DNA of 59,375 bases from Actinomycetota bacterium (GTDB taxonomy: Bacteria; Actinomycetota; Acidimicrobiia; Acidimicrobiales; Ilumatobacteraceae): positions 1 to 59,375 of the forward strand of contig WLHL01000005.1 of the NCBI GenBank assembly GCA_009702755.1, in the 5' to 3' direction. The notes beneath the pieces are model-generated. The model was given only the letters and a program-made list of their open reading frames with translations, searched no databases and was not told the DNA's origin. Each line of letters opens with the position of its first letter. Positions within the stretch are counted from its first letter, which is position 1. Positions 1-58,982 of this stretch are shown here, piece by piece. The translations under genes were made by a program, and so were the position numbers.

Positions 1-76
1 GCAGTTCGAACCGTGCTTGACTGATGTTGCGGGAACTTCCCGCCATGTCTCGGCGTCATACAGACACCGACCGAGA

Positions 77-97
77 GTGTTCTCAACGGGAGAACAC
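77..97. promoter_or_regulatory. 21-bp palindrome just upstream of the first whiB gene
   Basis: Perfect inverted repeat with 8-bp arms, GTGTTCTC and GAGAACAC, and a 5-base spacer. It ends four bases before the GAGGAG ribosome binding site (101-106) of the WhiB gene that starts at 111. It could be a repressor operator or, if transcribed, an 8-bp hairpin in the 5' leader. A palindrome of the same 8+5+8 geometry but different sequence lies upstream of the second whiB gene. Confidence 0.55.
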
Positions 98-110
98 AGC
101 GAGGAGAGTC

Positions 111-401
111 ATGAAACTCACAGTGACAGTCAATAACGAAACAGAGAAGCCTCTGCCGTTCGACGACTCACCAACAGCGTGGATGGCACAGGGCAATTGT
201 CGCAATTACCCACCAGCCACGTTCTTCCCTTCCGACGGTGTCGGCGTTGATCGCGCTCGCGCAATCTGCAAGGGATGCCCGGTGGGAGACACGTGCTTGG
301 AATATGCGTTAGAACAGCGCATTGAGCACGGTGTTTGGGGCGGATGCTCCGAGCGCGAGCGTCGCCGCATTCTGAAGCGCCGTCGCGGCATTGAAGTTTG
401 A
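111..401 (+). CDS. WhiB-family iron-sulfur transcription factor
   Basis: 96-residue WhiB-like protein. The family binds a [4Fe-4S] cluster through four cysteines and acts as a redox- or NO-sensitive regulator, often bound to the primary sigma factor. Cys30, Cys53, Cys56 and Cys62 give the usual C-x(n)-C-x2-C-x5-C pattern, followed by the GVWGG turn (74-78) and a basic, Arg-rich DNA-contacting tail. The start at 111 is preferred over longer in-frame starts because GAGGAG lies at 101-106 and upstream residues do not match the family. An extra cysteine (Cys79) follows the turn. The gene converges on tatA with a hairpin between. WhiB proteins are essentially confined to Actinobacteria, which supports the lineage assignment. 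The subclass cannot be fixed by eye. Confidence 0.93.
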   Translation: MKLTVTVNNETEKPLPFDDSPTAWMAQGNCRNYPPATFFPSDGVGVDRARAICKGCPVGDTCLEYALEQRIEHGVWGGCSERERRRILKRRRGIEV

Positions 402-402
402 T

Positions 403-425
403 TCGTCGGTCGTCACGACCGACGA
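403..425. terminator. Hairpin between convergent whiB and tatA
   Basis: Perfect 10-bp stem TCGTCGGTCG / CGACCGACGA with a 3-base loop, in the 28-base gap between two converging genes. There is no clear U-tract on either strand, so it is a likely bidirectional terminator or mRNA 3'-end stabiliser, not a textbook intrinsic terminator. Confidence 0.55.
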
Positions 426-429
426 GCGG

Positions 430-591
430 TTACTTCGACTCTGACGAGTCGTTGTCGCTCTTGCCCTCTTCCATGGCCTTCTTCAGCTCACGCTGAGCAG
501 AGCCAAGGTTCTTAGCCAACTTCGGCAACTGGCTGCCTCCGAACAAGACCAAGACAATTGCTGCAACGATAAAAAGTTCGGTGGATCCCAT
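430..591 (-). CDS. tatA: Sec-independent translocase subunit TatA/E
   Basis: 53-residue TatA-type protein of the twin-arginine export pathway, which carries folded proteins across the cytoplasmic membrane. It starts MGSTELFIVA, followed by a short transmembrane helix, the FGG hinge with SQLPKLAKNLG, an amphipathic helix and an acidic tail (NDSSESK). The start at 591 gives the canonical N terminus; an upstream in-frame extension would put polar residues before the helix and is rejected. At 53 residues it is shorter than most TatA proteins but within range. It is divergent from the formimidoyltransferase gene with 53 bases between. No tatB or tatC is in the window. Confidence 0.85.
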   Translation of the reverse strand: MGSTELFIVAAIVLVLFGGSQLPKLAKNLGSAQRELKKAMEEGKSDNDSSESK

Positions 592-644
592 GGGCAAAAC
601 CCTACCAGTAGCAGTGGCACGGACGCCCTCGTCCTTGCTAAGCA

Positions 645-1433
645 ATGAGGGTGTTGGAATGTGTCGTCAATGTGAGCGAAGGTCGCGACACCGCCGTGCT
701 TGCAGCTCTTTCCGACTCCGTCGCCCCGTACCTCCTCGATGTTCATTCAGATGCTGATCACAACCGATCCGTATTCACGCTGATTGGCGAAGAGGCTCCC
801 CGTCTCCTTGCATCTCGGGCACTGCAACTCATGAACATCAACGACCACAGTGGTGTCCATCCTCGCCTCGGCATCGTTGATGTTGTTCCATTTGTCCCTT
901 TGTTTGATGCGCAATGGTCTGATGCAGAGCGCGCACGAAATGACTTTGCACAGTGGGCTGCTGCAGAACTACAAGTGCCGTGTTTTCTCTACGGAGACGA
1001 ACGGACACTGCCTGACATCCGTCGTACGGCTTGGAGTTCGCTCGTGCCAGACGTTGGGCCATCAAAGCCACATCACACGGCAGGGGCAATGTGCGTGGGA
1101 GTTCGACAACCACTCATTGCATACAACGTGTGGCTCGCTGGAGTTGATCTTGCAACGACAAAAGCAATCGCATCTGCCGTGCGCAGCGAGTCGATTCGCA
1201 CATTGGGATTACAAGTCGGCGAATTCACTCAAGTGAGCATCAATTTGGTGATGCCAGAGATTTCGAATCCCGCTGACGCTTTCGATGCAGTGCGACAACA
1301 TACAGAGATTCATCATTGTGAATTGGTGGGGTTGATACCCCGTGACATTCTGCTTTCAATTCCGGCAGGTCGCTGGGAGGAGTTAGACCTCGCGGAAGAC
1401 AGAACGATTGAGTGGCGGTTAGAGAACCGCTAA
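645..1433 (+). CDS. ftcD: Glutamate formimidoyltransferase-like protein
   Basis: 262-residue protein matching the formimidoyltransferase domain of FTCD, which transfers the formimino group of N-formimino-glutamate to tetrahydrofolate, feeding one-carbon metabolism. Diagnostic stretches are ECVVNVSEGRD at the N terminus, SDADHNRSVFTLIG near residues 35-50 and HSGVHPRLGIVDVVPFVPL near 70-90, matching the family's SDPDHNR and HPRMGALDV signatures. It lacks the cyclodeaminase half found in animal enzymes and is shorter than the roughly 300 residues of the two-subdomain transferase, mostly at the C-terminal end. No histidine-utilisation genes adjoin it, so the substrate is inferred from homology only. 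The ATG at 645 has a weak ribosome binding site. It converges on the second whiB gene. Confidence 0.8.
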   Translation: MRVLECVVNVSEGRDTAVLAALSDSVAPYLLDVHSDADHNRSVFTLIGEEAPRLLASRALQLMNINDHSGVHPRLGIVDVVPFVPLFDAQWSDAERARNDFAQWAAAELQVPCFLYGDERTLPDIRRTAWSSLVPDVGPSKPHHTAGAMCVGVRQPLIAYNVWLAGVDLATTKAIASAVRSESIRTLGLQVGEFTQVSINLVMPEISNPADAFDAVRQHTEIHHCELVGLIPRDILLSIPAGRWEELDLAEDRTIEWRLENR

Positions 1434-53849: not shown

Positions 53850-54215
53850 CTAGAGGGCGGCGACGACAGCCATCGCGACTGTGTCGGTATGGGTGATGGA
53901 GACGTGCCAACCGCCCACGCCTTGAGAATCAGCCAATTGCTGAGCCCGACCGGTCACCTGTAATCCAGGCGCACCCGATGGAAGCTTTTCAACCGATACG
54001 TCATGGAAGTCAAAAGCTCCGAGACCCACACCCAATGCCTTCATGGTTGCTTCTCTCACAGCAAACCGTGCAGCGAGAGACGGTGCGTCATCTGAACGCT
54101 CTGCCAATGAAGCGAGTTCTTCAGCAGTGAAGAGACGAGTGCGCAAGTTGGGACGACGCGACAAGAGATCACGGAATCGTGCAATGTCGACTGCATCAAT
54201 TCCGATTCCACGCAT
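53850..54215 (-). CDS. acpS: Holo-[acyl-carrier-protein] synthase
   Basis: 121-residue AcpS that transfers phosphopantetheine from CoA to acyl carrier protein. GIGIDAVDIARF carries the Mg-binding Asp, FAVREATMKALG the Glu and catalytic Lys, and GGWHVSITHTD the conserved SxTH strand. Start at 54215 (MRGIGIDAV) is the normal N terminus, five bases after the GlmS-like stop. Confidence 0.94.
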   Translation of the reverse strand: MRGIGIDAVDIARFRDLLSRRPNLRTRLFTAEELASLAERSDDAPSLAARFAVREATMKALGVGLGAFDFHDVSVEKLPSGAPGLQVTGRAQQLADSQGVGGWHVSITHTDTVAMAVVAAL

Positions 54216-54220
54216 TGCGT

Positions 54221-57200
54221 CTACGCCTCGGTGCGCCACAGGTTGGCGCTCTCAGAAACAGGAAGAATCAACAAGTCTTCAATCGAGACTTCTCCAAGGC
54301 GTTCTTCGCGGAAGGAACCCTCTGTCTCAGTGACCCAGTCAACAAGACGGTCATACCTGCGGTCGTAGCCCTGCAGCACCTGGCGCACTGCCGACGGTGA
54401 CATCTGTGCGCGGAACTGTACGTGCAACAAAGTGATTCCTACTGTGACTGCACCGTGTACCTCGGGGACAAAAATGACAGTGCGAGAGTCCTTGCGGCCA
54501 CGGGCAACAAGAAGTTCTTGTTCAGCGGCAACACGACGCTTTGTTCCGACCAATGTTGGGTTTGTCTCCACGCGAGATGACAACGTGAGAGCAAGACCAC
54601 CACGATCAAGAATCTCAATAGTGGATGTTGATGATTGCGGATCACCAATCACTGCATAACGAGTAAACCCGGTGACAGATTCCACTGCGGCATCAAGCGA
54701 TGCAAGAACTTTGAGAATTTCGTACGGAACATGTTCGCGTGCAGAACCTGCATCAAGCACTGCGCGAACAAGCGTGCGGTCCAGAAGGCCTTCCTCGCTT
54801 CGTGAAATACCTACGGTGACAGTCTTGGCTTGATGCTTGATTGCATCAATTGGCCGAGTCAATTCATCAATTGCATGCGTGAGGGCATTAATCAGATCTT
54901 CGAGCAATGTTGCAGGAGAAGCTGCTTTCCCGGTTTCACGTTGATATGCCTGCAAAGGCTGTGGCCCCGTGATGACACGCAGTAACGACACCACTGCAAC
55001 AGCTGTTGATGCCTCAAGATTTCCGTTGTACTGACCCGTCTGAAGAGCAGCGAAGAATCCACGCGCTGTTGCGACGATTTCACGCTCAACACGAAGCAAT
55101 GCATCATCTCCATCGCCGCCACGTTCCACAACATGGTCAATCACTTCACGAAGCGCACGTAATGGACGTGCCAATTCATCAATCGCCAATGCAGCTTCGT
55201 ACCCGAATAGGTGACCCACCATTGAGGAAAGAACAAAGGCAATCGCTGGGTCAGAGACAGGAACAGTGATCACTGCAGAAGCGGCATCAAAACGAGTCTC
55301 GCCCTCTGTTGCAATCACAATCGGTTCTGCTTTGTGCGCTTTAAAGATGGCAACTTCTTTGGCAACGTCAGTGGCAGTTCCCTCTGAAAGACCCGCAGCA
55401 CACACAAGAATCATTGGCTCACAAGAAAGGTCAATGTGCTTTTTGTCTTCGGTGACATCACACGAGATTGACTTGTAACACAGCTCTGACAACTTGATTC
55501 GTACTTCATGGGCAGCAACGGTGTTCGGTCCACTGCCAACAACAGCCCAATAGCGACGAGATGGAGCAAATGCGCGAGCGACAACACCAATCTCTGCACG
55601 CTTTGCAATCACTGCTTCCATCGAAGCTGGCATCTGCACCAGAGAGTCAAGGATGCGGTGCATGCGATCATTGTCGGCAAGTCCCGTTGCACGAGCAATG
55701 GCGCACGACAGAACTGCACCTGCAGCTACCTGGGCATAGAACGCCTTCGTACTCGCAACACTCATCTCAACGTCGCGACCATCGCTGGTGTAGTACACAC
55801 CGTGCGCTTTGCTCGCGAGTTCACTGCCGCGGCGGTTCACAATCGCGAGTACTGCAGCACCGCGTGATGCAACAAGATCAACCGTGCGATTTGTATCGGT
55901 GGTCGTACCGCTTTGGCTCACTGCAATGACCAACATGTCGGACATGTCTTGATGCATGCCAAAGCCAGAAAGCTCAGTTGCAGTTAATGCCTCAACATGT
56001 ACTGAAGAATCAAGCAACGAGTTGAGAACAGGAACCAAAGAAGTGCCGGCAACTGCCGCCGTGCCTTGACCAATCACTCGAATACGCGTGATGCTGCGAT
56101 TCGACAGTCGTTCAATGATGGAAGCAGGCAAAGTGAACTCATCAAGGTCAGGGACCAACTTGCCATTGACCAAAGATGTGCGACCACGAATTGTCTTTCG
56201 GAAGCTTCGCGGTGCTTCTCCAATTTCCTTCAGAAGGAAATGCGGAGAGTCTCCTCGGTCGATGTCGCGCGTCGTGACTTCTGCAGTCTGGACACTCTTG
56301 TCCGTCAAAGAAATTTCAGTGCCGTCATAGGCGTACATGGAAACGCCGGCGAGACTGCCCGCACCCGATGCCGACAGGCGCATGACTTGTCCGCGAGATG
56401 ACGGCTGATCCGCATGAATGGGTGTTTCGCCGTCGAGACGCACATACTGCAATGTTTCTTCAACGGTGCCGTATGGCTCGCTGGCCACAATGAATCGATC
56501 TTCTGCGAGACCGACATAGAGCCCCTGGCCACTGCCGTGCAATGCCAAGTAAAAATCGTCAGGTTCATCTGCATTGCTGTACCCAATCGCAACAGAACCC
56601 TCGAACTGAGTGACTGCATTGAGAAACGCATCAAGCGTTGACATGCCATTGGCGCGGCCTCGATCAACAAGGGCTGGAATGACCTTTGCGTCAGTGGTGA
56701 TCGGATCTGCAAAGCGCAGGTTGTGGCGAGTCTTTAACTCAGCATGGTTATCAACGTCGCCATTCAATACAGCAACAGATACAGCTGTGTTGTCTCCTGT
56801 TATCTCTTCGCCATTGACAGGGTGAGCATTTGGTTCCGAGATGATGCCCACACTTGCCCAGCGAGTGTGGCCCAACACCGATGTCCGCGACCCTTCCACA
56901 GCAAGTGCACGACGAAGGAGGTCATCAGATGCAAGAGCCTCACGCATGTGGCGAGTGTTGTCTCCCAGTTCACCAATTTCTGCAGCGGCTTTGTACACAA
57001 AAACAAGAGTGCTTCCAGAATGACGAACGCTCTTGTTCGTAAACAACGGATCACTTGTTCGTTGCGCAAGTGCATCAGCCATCTCTGCAGGCAGATTCTT
57101 GAAGACCGGTGATGACACAATCACACTGATGCCAGCGGAATCTCGACCACGCACTTCCATGCGGTCAATTGCCGACAGAGATTGTTGGATGCTCAGGTAT

Positions 57201-57619
57201 CCGGCAAGCGAGGAAACTGATGCTGCCTCTCCAGCAAGTGCGTGCACTGCATCTGCTGTGCGGAGGCGATCACGACGGATTGCCCAGGAGGCATCACGAA
57301 CGCGAGACAAGCGGAGTGCTTCAGCATCCAAGGTGACCGTATCGACGTGCAGCGCATCAATCCGTGCTTCTTCGTTGTCGGCCATGGCATCGAGAACATC
57401 GAGACGAGACAAAATCTCACGAATCAGAGTCACGTTGCCGGCGAGGGTTTGCATTCCGGCATCACCGCGCAGCAATTGATCCGCCGCCATCAAGGCATCA
57501 GCGACAGCCGCCATGTCGGTCCCGGCCGCAAGAGCGGAATCAAGAAGAACAAGGACTTCAGAGGGCGCAGGCGCAGTTCGCGTGCATGGTCGGGGAAGGA
57601 TTCCGATAATGCCGCACAT
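54221..57619 (-). CDS. glmS: Extended GlmS-like glutamine amidotransferase / double-SIS protein
   Basis: 1132 residues against about 610 for normal GlmS (fructose-6-phosphate to glucosamine-6-phosphate). N-terminal nucleophile Cys2 (MCGIIGIL). About 130 extra helical residues (12-150) before RGRDSAG (157-163). HTRWASVG (251-258), with Val257 where GlmS has His77. NG (286-287) and Asp310 retained. KEIGEAPRSFRKTIRGR (464-480) precedes SIS1, with SQSGTTTDTN (568-577) and VASTKAFYAQ. SIS2 keeps Lys709, Glu712 and His728. The sequence then continues about 300 residues. AKTVTV at 931-936 mirrors the GlmS tail AKSVTVE, whose Lys forms the Schiff base. Position between glmM and acpS matches mycobacterial glmS. 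Confidence 0.82.
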   Translation of the reverse strand: MCGIIGILPRPCTRTAPAPSEVLVLLDSALAAGTDMAAVADALMAADQLLRGDAGMQTLAGNVTLIREILSRLDVLDAMADNEEARIDALHVDTVTLDAEALRLSRVRDASWAIRRDRLRTADAVHALAGEAASVSSLAGYLSIQQSLSAIDRMEVRGRDSAGISVIVSSPVFKNLPAEMADALAQRTSDPLFTNKSVRHSGSTLVFVYKAAAEIGELGDNTRHMREALASDDLLRRALAVEGSRTSVLGHTRWASVGIISEPNAHPVNGEEITGDNTAVSVAVLNGDVDNHAELKTRHNLRFADPITTDAKVIPALVDRGRANGMSTLDAFLNAVTQFEGSVAIGYSNADEPDDFYLALHGSGQGLYVGLAEDRFIVASEPYGTVEETLQYVRLDGETPIHADQPSSRGQVMRLSASGAGSLAGVSMYAYDGTEISLTDKSVQTAEVTTRDIDRGDSPHFLLKEIGEAPRSFRKTIRGRTSLVNGKLVPDLDEFTLPASIIERLSNRSITRIRVIGQGTAAVAGTSLVPVLNSLLDSSVHVEALTATELSGFGMHQDMSDMLVIAVSQSGTTTDTNRTVDLVASRGAAVLAIVNRRGSELASKAHGVYYTSDGRDVEMSVASTKAFYAQVAAGAVLSCAIARATGLADNDRMHRILDSLVQMPASMEAVIAKRAEIGVVARAFAPSRRYWAVVGSGPNTVAAHEVRIKLSELCYKSISCDVTEDKKHIDLSCEPMILVCAAGLSEGTATDVAKEVAIFKAHKAEPIVIATEGETRFDAASAVITVPVSDPAIAFVLSSMVGHLFGYEAALAIDELARPLRALREVIDHVVERGGDGDDALLRVEREIVATARGFFAALQTGQYNGNLEASTAVAVVSLLRVITGPQPLQAYQRETGKAASPATLLEDLINALTHAIDELTRPIDAIKHQAKTVTVGISRSEEGLLDRTLVRAVLDAGSAREHVPYEILKVLASLDAAVESVTGFTRYAVIGDPQSSTSTIEILDRGGLALTLSSRVETNPTLVGTKRRVAAEQELLVARGRKDSRTVIFVPEVHGAVTVGITLLHVQFRAQMSPSAVRQVLQGYDRRYDRLVDWVTETEGSFREERLGEVSIEDLLILPVSESANLWRTEA

Positions 57620-57650: not shown

Positions 57651-58982
57651 TCAGTGAGCGCCCTCCACGGCGCCACCATGTTGTGCAATTACAGCATTTG
57701 CGAGGGTCAAAGCACTCGATAATGCCAGCGATTCAGTTTGAGCTTCCACCATCACACGCACCAATGGCTCTGTGCCGGACGCACGAACGAGAACTCGGCC
57801 ATCAGACCCTAAAGATTCTTCTACAGCGTGAATTGCTTCAGCGATGTCACTCACAGGATCAAAGACACGCTCAGTTGTGCGCACGTTGATCAGCATTTGT
57901 GGATACGACTGCATCACCGTGATTGCTTGATCAAGAGAAACATGAGAGCGAGCAAGAGATTCAATGAGAACGAGTGCTGCAAGCAAGCCATCACCCGTTG
58001 TGGCGAGAGCGCGATGAATAATGTGACCGCTCTGTTCACCGCCCAGAACAAAGTCGTATTCCTCAAGAGCGGCAAGAACGCTGCGGTCACCAACTGGTGT
58101 CACAACAACATCCACACCAAGTTCAGACATCGCACGATGGAACCCAAGATTCGTCATCACTGTGACAGCAACACCTTTGTTACGCAACAAACCTCGCTGA
58201 GCAAGATCAGCTGCTGCAATCGCCATGACGTAGTCGCCATCAACAACAACACCGCTGCCAGTGACTGCCATCAAACGATCGCCATCACCGTCAAATGCAA
58301 TACCGATGTCTGCACCTTCAGCAATCACTCGGGCTACTAAGCCCGAAGTCGATGTTGCTCCGCACTTGTCGTTGATGTTGCGGCCATTCGGCTCTGCATT
58401 CATCACCACAACATCGGCATCCGTGGAGGTAAACAACGCGGGTGCTGCAGAACTCATTGCACCATTGGCACAATCAAGAACAATTCGCATGCCAGCAAAT
58501 GCGCTGCCAACTGTGTTCAAACGGTGCTGCACGTATTCATCAACAATGTGCGAAGCATCGTGCACAGTGCCCAGCGCAACAGGGGCTGGTTCGGCAACAA
58601 GCGCGTGCCACTGTCGTTCGATATCAATTTGTTCGCTGTCAGAAAGTTTTGACCCACCGGCAGCAAACACTTTGATGCCGTTGTCAGTCCATGGATTATG
58701 CGATGCAGTGATTGCAATCGCGACCCACTGATGATGCTCTGCAGCGAATGCAATTGCCGGTGTAGGCGCTACACCCATCTGGTGCACCGTGACACCTTCA
58801 GCAGCACATCCGTCAATGATTGCTTGCTCTAATGCAGGGCCGCTCTCACGCGTGTCTCTTCCCACCACAACAGCAGTGGGTTGAAGAACGCGTGCGACTG
58901 CGCGTGCAAGGTCACGAGCAAGAGCAGGAGTGAGCTCGTCGATCGCGACGCCACGGACACCGTCGGTACCGAAGTGAAGCAT
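57651..58982 (-). CDS. glmM: Phosphoglucosamine mutase
   Basis: 443-residue mutase converting glucosamine-6-phosphate to the 1-phosphate for UDP-GlcNAc synthesis. MLHFGTDGVRG start, phosphoserine Ser94 in ITASHNPWTDNGIK, metal loop AFDGDGDRL, sugar loop GGEQSGH and the phosphate-binding RASGTEPLVRVM. All residues expected for activity are present. It precedes the GlmS-like gene by 31 bases, so the two successive pathway steps are adjacent. Confidence 0.96.
   Translation of the reverse strand: MLHFGTDGVRGVAIDELTPALARDLARAVARVLQPTAVVVGRDTRESGPALEQAIIDGCAAEGVTVHQMGVAPTPAIAFAAEHHQWVAIAITASHNPWTDNGIKVFAAGGSKLSDSEQIDIERQWHALVAEPAPVALGTVHDASHIVDEYVQHRLNTVGSAFAGMRIVLDCANGAMSSAAPALFTSTDADVVVMNAEPNGRNINDKCGATSTSGLVARVIAEGADIGIAFDGDGDRLMAVTGSGVVVDGDYVMAIAAADLAQRGLLRNKGVAVTVMTNLGFHRAMSELGVDVVVTPVGDRSVLAALEEYDFVLGGEQSGHIIHRALATTGDGLLAALVLIESLARSHVSLDQAITVMQSYPQMLINVRTTERVFDPVSDIAEAIHAVEESLGSDGRVLVRASGTEPLVRVMVEAQTESLALSSALTLANAVIAQHGGAVEGAH

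Follow-up and report, generated by a model that had tools for sequence, protein, structure and literature searches.

What becomes of glucosamine-6-phosphate (GlcN-6-P) synthase when its gene is nearly doubled in length and its catalytic C-tail comes to lie inside the chain? GlmS commits fructose-6-phosphate to peptidoglycan and is a drug target, and the C-tail of the normal enzyme is a free end that closes over the sugar. The question is raised by a locus from an Ilumatobacteraceae bacterium of the order Acidimicrobiales (contig WLHL01000005.1), where a protein of 1132 residues occupies the place of GlmS; positions are given for the window, i.e. the whole 59,375-nt stretch of DNA that was analyzed. 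Bacterial GlmS subunits are about 600-700 residues long (range 589-716), and the enzyme is controlled mainly at the RNA level (PMC9272926). The analysis presented here leads us to regard the long protein as probably the organism's only GlcN-6-P synthase, a remodeled GlmS in which a PAS/GAF-like domain, possibly a sensor, is tethered to the active-site lid.

The ORF map confirms that the gene stands in the syntenic position of glmS, after glmM and before acpS (Table 1). Its reading frame runs on the minus strand from an ATG at 57619 to a stop ending at 54221, comprises 1132 codons and starts with MCGIIG, whereas the plus-strand translation is riddled with stop codons; a spacer of 31 nt separates it from glmM, and it slightly overlaps the acpS frame. 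With 1132 residues as compared to about 609 in E. coli GlmS, the product is nearly twice the normal size, as had been noticed from the sequence, and it exceeds the range given above for GlmS, whose chain ends at the C-tail. Pfam finds an amidotransferase domain (GATase_6) and SIS domains, and the NCBIfam GlmS equivalog TIGR01135 aligns to residues 243-812 at 224 bits, which is below its cut-off of 418. Judged by its sequence, the long form is homologous to GlmS and appears GlmS-like in its working, yet it falls outside the family's size and score criteria. The frame cannot be put down to chance, as many genomes conserve it over its whole length: the long form is present, complete or cut by a contig end, in all but one of 36 sampled relatives of the same genus or family. 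It also occurs in many named MAGs of Acidimicrobiia and Acidimicrobiales, where at least 552 relatives were confirmed and the top 80 retained; the close relatives by name, among the matches listed, are Ilumatobacteraceae MAGs.

Table 1. The long-form glmS gene, the parts of its product and its neighbors, in window coordinates.
Feature	Position	Strand	Evidence
Long-form glmS, 1132 aa: glutaminase, two SIS, two helical inserts, C-terminal PAS/GAF-like domain	54221..57619	-	ORF; Pfam GATase_6 and SIS; NCBIfam GlmS models below cut-off
Residues 1-8, MCGIIGIL, nucleophile Cys2 strand	57596..57619	-	C2 invariant in 43/43 long, 26/26 normal
Residues 9-138, helical insert between strand 1 and helix 1 of glutaminase domain	57206..57595	-	alignment; helices in model
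Residues 139-449, glutaminase (Ntn amidotransferase) with R157, R253, N286-G287, D310	56273..57205	-	Pfam; alignment; structure match
Residues 450-815, isomerase (two SIS) with S568-Q569-S570-T573, E705, K709, E712, H728	55175..56272	-	Pfam; alignment; structure match
Residues 816-930, helical insert between last SIS helix and catalytic C-tail	54830..55174	-	alignment; helices in model
Residues 931-936, AKTVTV, catalytic C-tail with Lys932 (E. coli Lys603)	54812..54829	-	invariant in 43/43
Residues 937-1132, extension behind C-tail; PAS/GAF-like domain about 945-1132	54224..54811	-	model, Foldseek
glmM (next pathway enzyme), directly upstream of long glmS	57651..58982	-	ORF; glmM linkage in most loci
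acpS, directly downstream of long glmS	53850..54239	-	ORF; locus comparison

The additions were compared in an alignment of 43 long forms (1114-1167 residues, from Acidimicrobiia and a few other Actinomycetota) and 26 normal GlmS proteins. The insert of about 130 residues that the sequence-only reading had placed right after the Cys2 strand (residues 9-138) is a family-wide feature, as it spans 128-151 residues across the 43 long forms and is absent from normal GlmS; it yields no Pfam match above cut-off. The second helical insert corresponds to a mere short linker in normal GlmS. A third addition had been missed: about 48 extra residues lie between RGRDSAG (R-loop) and HTRWAS (Q-loop), such that the span from E155 to H251 measures 96 residues versus 47 in E. 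coli GlmS, and this stretch is widened in all 43 long forms. As described earlier, AKTVTV is followed by 196 residues, and this tail measures 188-199 residues in all 43 long forms. Directly after the C-tail, where normal GlmS has its terminal Glu, the motif GISR (residues 937-940; 54800-54811, minus strand) is invariant in the aligned long forms.

The known catalytic residues have been retained throughout this enlargement. The glutaminase residues that mark a GlmS (Cys2, Arg253, Asn286-Gly287 and Asp310) are invariant in all 43 long forms, as are Glu705 (E. coli E481), Lys709 (K485), Glu712 (E488), His728 (H504) and Lys932 (K603). In E. coli numbering, the invariant set further includes C1, R26, R73, W74, H86, N98-G99 and D123, along with S347-Q348-S349-T352, K503, A602-K603 and V605-T606-V607, and the residues that bind glutamine and the sugar phosphate are invariant or nearly so. 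The residues named as catalytic for GlmS are Cys1, Glu488, His504 and Lys603 (PMC9272926). Since every one of them is kept, the initial description of the active site as 'mixed' was too pessimistic, while the residues that it listed as retained (Cys2, Arg253, Asn286-Gly287, Asp310, Lys709, Glu712 and His728) are indeed invariant; Glu705 and Lys932 are of equal importance. The replacement of the E. coli His77 equivalent by Val257, also noticed at that stage, extends to the whole family (Val in 41 of the 43 long forms, Met in the other 2), but is no argument for a dead enzyme, as an alanine occupies this position in E. coli PurF, whose glutaminase chemistry is the same. Of the 93 alignment columns that are fixed within both groups, 64 are identical and 29 are fixed to different residues. 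The latter include (normal>long) C300>Q518, E351>T572, G500>E724, G505>I729 and H97>L285, as well as Y28>R159 in the R-loop and a change in the surroundings of H504 from GELKHG to EDKKHI, and their distribution suggests that the lid region has been retuned as a whole.

To place these residues in three dimensions, we used an AlphaFold model of long GlmS built from 51 sequences of its own family (mean pLDDT 85, pTM 0.75). Over residues 2-938 the model matches human GFAT-1 with a Z of 41 and E. coli GlmS with a Z of 40, i.e. the predicted catalytic part has the overall fold of the family, and in the comparison with 2j6h the matched ends are 2..937 on 1..608. Specifically, the glutaminase domain matches 1xff with a Z of 31.1 and an rmsd of 1.6, and the isomerase matches 7dnr and 2zj3 with Z values of 40-41. 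Structure prediction had been proposed as a way to see whether Lys932 reaches the SIS active site. The model is consistent with Lys932 occupying the place of Lys603 in the chain; its reach to the sugar is left unpredicted along with the rest of the lid geometry, as the C-tail (923-943) and the His-loop (714-727) have pLDDT values below 50.

Across genomes, the long form and normal GlmS alternate. A profile of residues 937-1132 detected the long form in 57 of 148 Acidimicrobiia genomes, the GlmS equivalog scored above its cut-off in 83, and the two sets do not overlap. In the 57 long-form genomes the best equivalog E-values range from 1e-37 to 1e-76, and all listed long forms fall under the TIGR01135 cut-off. 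In a phylum scan, the extension was found in 31 of 396 Actinomycetota genomes, plus one weak match (E 5e-4), and it also occurs outside Acidimicrobiia (families f40, f47, f67 and f70). Both forms are present together in one of the 31 extension-bearing genomes (G102, locus L144); its size of 6.5 Mb and 5% contamination suggest a mixed bin, with a real double set being possible. A normal-length glmS elsewhere in the source genome, which together with loss of activity would have made the long protein a paralogue of other function, was searched for, and no second GlmS was found in this 1.84-Mb assembly. Such a copy could be missed, as the assembly is only 85% complete; relatives at 96-98% completeness give the same pattern. 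The glmM-glmS-acpS neighborhood is found at most loci of long and normal forms alike, with the f70 copies lying elsewhere. No long form was seen in viral contigs, and plasmids carry only ordinary GlmS (26-28% identical among the matches listed). In one genome a single frameshift breaks the long glmS on a 2-Mb contig (L045, G046:C1:1176000-1187000), near residue 733 and past the His-loop; what looked like a split gene is a full-length homologue with this one frameshift, which is probably an indel introduced in assembly. From its residues and its distribution, we consider it very probable that long GlmS is a working synthase.

The domain behind the C-tail, when modeled alone, reaches a pLDDT of 94.3. 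Its best structural match is the PAS-type region (residues 174-361) of 7jsr, the large glutamate dehydrogenase L-GDH180 from M. smegmatis (Foldseek E 8.4e-4; Z 9.3 over 162 residues, rmsd 4.6, 14% identity), and GAF domains rank next with Z values of 8.0-8.6. The scores are moderate and the whole domain aligned for 7jsr only; the predicted likeness to PAS/GAF domains is one of fold. A Pfam scan of the C-terminal domains of 52 members returned no PAS or GAF match and no Pfam family, the matches at 0.001-0.01 in single members (DUF7124, KH_DEAH11 and others) being scattered, and a sequence search of the PDB gave no credible relative. A comparison with the N-terminal part of large GDH by hhalign was likewise negative. 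PAS sequences are poorly conserved, and the PAS-type domain of L-GDH180 has been proposed by its authors to be a metabolic sensor (PMC8175468). Both proteins are enzymes of glutamate/ammonia metabolism in Actinomycetota that carry such an appendage, but in L-GDH180 it is N-terminal and located beside ACT-like domains, whereas in long GlmS it is C-terminal. We judge the chances that the added domain has a sensor or regulatory role to be about even.

In the mechanism that we favor, which draws on the invariant residues, Cys2 would hydrolyze glutamine, the ammonia set free would travel along the Trp254/C-tail channel, and fructose-6-phosphate would be converted to GlcN-6-P at the SIS domains by means of Glu712, His728 and Lys932. 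The lid would be tied at both ends, by about 115 helical residues before it and by the PAS/GAF-like domain behind it. This domain may bind a metabolite or partner and, via the C-tail tether, promote or block lid closure, with the result that allosteric control would couple activity to the ligand or partner. To our knowledge, control of this kind is not known in ordinary bacterial GlmS. The earlier proposal of a working but remodeled enzyme, perhaps with added regulation, fits the retained catalytic residues, the lack of a second GlmS among the genes found, the alternation with normal GlmS, the glmM linkage and the predicted PAS/GAF-like fold. In the known enzymes, the sugar pocket lies under the C-tail, and human GFAT-1 is disturbed by tags at its termini (PMC7000685), but human GFAT2 tolerates a C-terminal His-tag (PMC7948480), and a long C-terminus therefore need not be regulatory.

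The main rival explanation is a working GlmS whose C-terminal domain and helical inserts are structural, setting the oligomer or stabilizing the fold and sensing nothing. PAS/GAF folds double as dimerization modules, and the helical inserts, which are among the least conserved regions of long GlmS, resemble coiled-coil or packing elements, both of which speak for this explanation; however, the C-tail lid and its flanks (TRPIDAIKHQAKTVTVGISR), which link to the C-terminal domain, form the most conserved stretch of the protein, and the domain itself contains many invariant charged residues (e.g. R961, R1016, K1027, D1044, R1046, R1088, E1098 and E1100), both of which argue against it. We regard a purely structural role as unlikely, while taking it more seriously than the other alternatives.

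A change of reaction is a second alternative, for which the family tree is relevant. The long forms constitute one clade (support 100); the branch that leads to it measures 6.2 changes per column (quick method), which is too long for the root to be placed. Identity in the core is 50-91% within the long forms, 37-92% within normal GlmS from several phyla and 24-34% between the two, and no intermediate forms were seen. We read this pattern as one abrupt remodeling that was followed by strong constraint, and a degree of lateral spread is suggested by copies from other classes that are nested among the long forms. The long branch, and the 29 otherwise fixed GlmS positions that are fixed differently, make it possible that the protein is an amidotransferase of other specificity, with a different keto-sugar phosphate acceptor or product, and that GlcN-6-P is made otherwise. 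However, the strict alternation with normal GlmS makes a changed reaction unlikely, the long form adjoins glmM at most loci, a search of the source genome for a NagB-type deaminase (PF01182) gave no match, and sugar-phosphate and catalytic residues are kept. With S568-Q569-S570-T573, E712, H728 and K932 all in place, the suggestion of a different acceptor sugar gains no support, though the 29 fixed differences leave some room for it; we consider this alternative improbable.

We likewise give little credence to a cut of the chain behind the C-tail (at about V936/G937), which would restore a free C-terminus and release the last domain as a separate protein. The invariant GISR directly after AKTVTV could mark such a site, and the low pLDDT suggests an exposed or mobile stretch; but invariance of GISR is equally expected of a coupling linker, we know of no protease or self-cleavage motif for this site, and the phylum scan found no stand-alone gene for the domain, its only occurrences apart from a GlmS-sized ORF being shortened frames in fragmented assemblies and one weak match. 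It is highly improbable that the C-terminal domain is an added enzyme, e.g. an acetyltransferase making up for the short GlmU of Acidimicrobiales, as this GlmU, which ends near E. coli residue 345 in long-form members of the order, is equally short in its normal-GlmS genomes, GlmU is full-length where the long form occurs in other orders and classes, and the fold matches PAS/GAF best. Since the two traits do not co-occur across orders, short GlmU and long GlmS appear unlinked, and compensation was rejected on this ground. The shortened GlmU, which lacks the second half of the acetyltransferase domain (L187, L189, L190, L193 and L194, corresponding to G038, G049, G021, G091 and G031; class scan), is a separate observation, made in long- and short-GlmS Acidimicrobiales alike, whereas other orders have the full-length protein. 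In the same-family genomes G036 (98% complete) and G032 (96%) and in the source genome, no GlmU match better than about 1e-17 was found.

As a remodeled GlmS with a putative tethered sensor, the protein shares with bacterial GlmS (E. coli, TIGR01135, PDB 1jxa/2j6h) the Ntn glutaminase, the two SIS domains, all catalytic residues, the C-tail and the linkage to glmM, but differs from the E. coli enzyme in its length, its three inserts and a C-tail that is internal and followed by about 196 residues. Human GFAT-1 (6r4e etc.) has the same catalytic fold, and GFAT is also an elaborated, regulated GlmS; however, UDP-GlcNAc regulates it by acting at the isomerase domain and interdomain linker, and its chain stops at the C-loop, whereas the additions of the long form lie elsewhere and are of a different kind. 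The GlmR/YvcK-YvcJ system of Bacillus subtilis, like the control proposed here, acts on GlmS at the protein level, responding to UDP-GlcNAc (PMC7525490), but does so through separate regulator proteins, whereas the putative sensor of long GlmS is fused to the enzyme. No paper on long GlmS was found in the open-access literature, and no Pfam family or NCBIfam equivalog was found for its new parts or architecture. Tentatively, and at somewhat less than even chances, we propose that long GlmS represents a separate lineage in which a PAS/GAF-like sensor is built into the chain as a continuation of the lid, and through it a metabolite would directly gate entry to cell-wall amino-sugar synthesis; it would then parallel, in bacteria and by another route, the eukaryotic GFAT with its feedback regulation, having become fixed instead of ordinary GlmS in much of Acidimicrobiia. 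The nearly double-sized form stands in for normal GlmS in about 40% of the genomes sampled from this class, and it is an exception to the apparent rule that a GlmS chain has its end at the catalytic C-tail. A large environmental lineage thus has a GlmS that equivalog models overlook, and the long form makes protein-level regulation of bacterial GlmS open to test.
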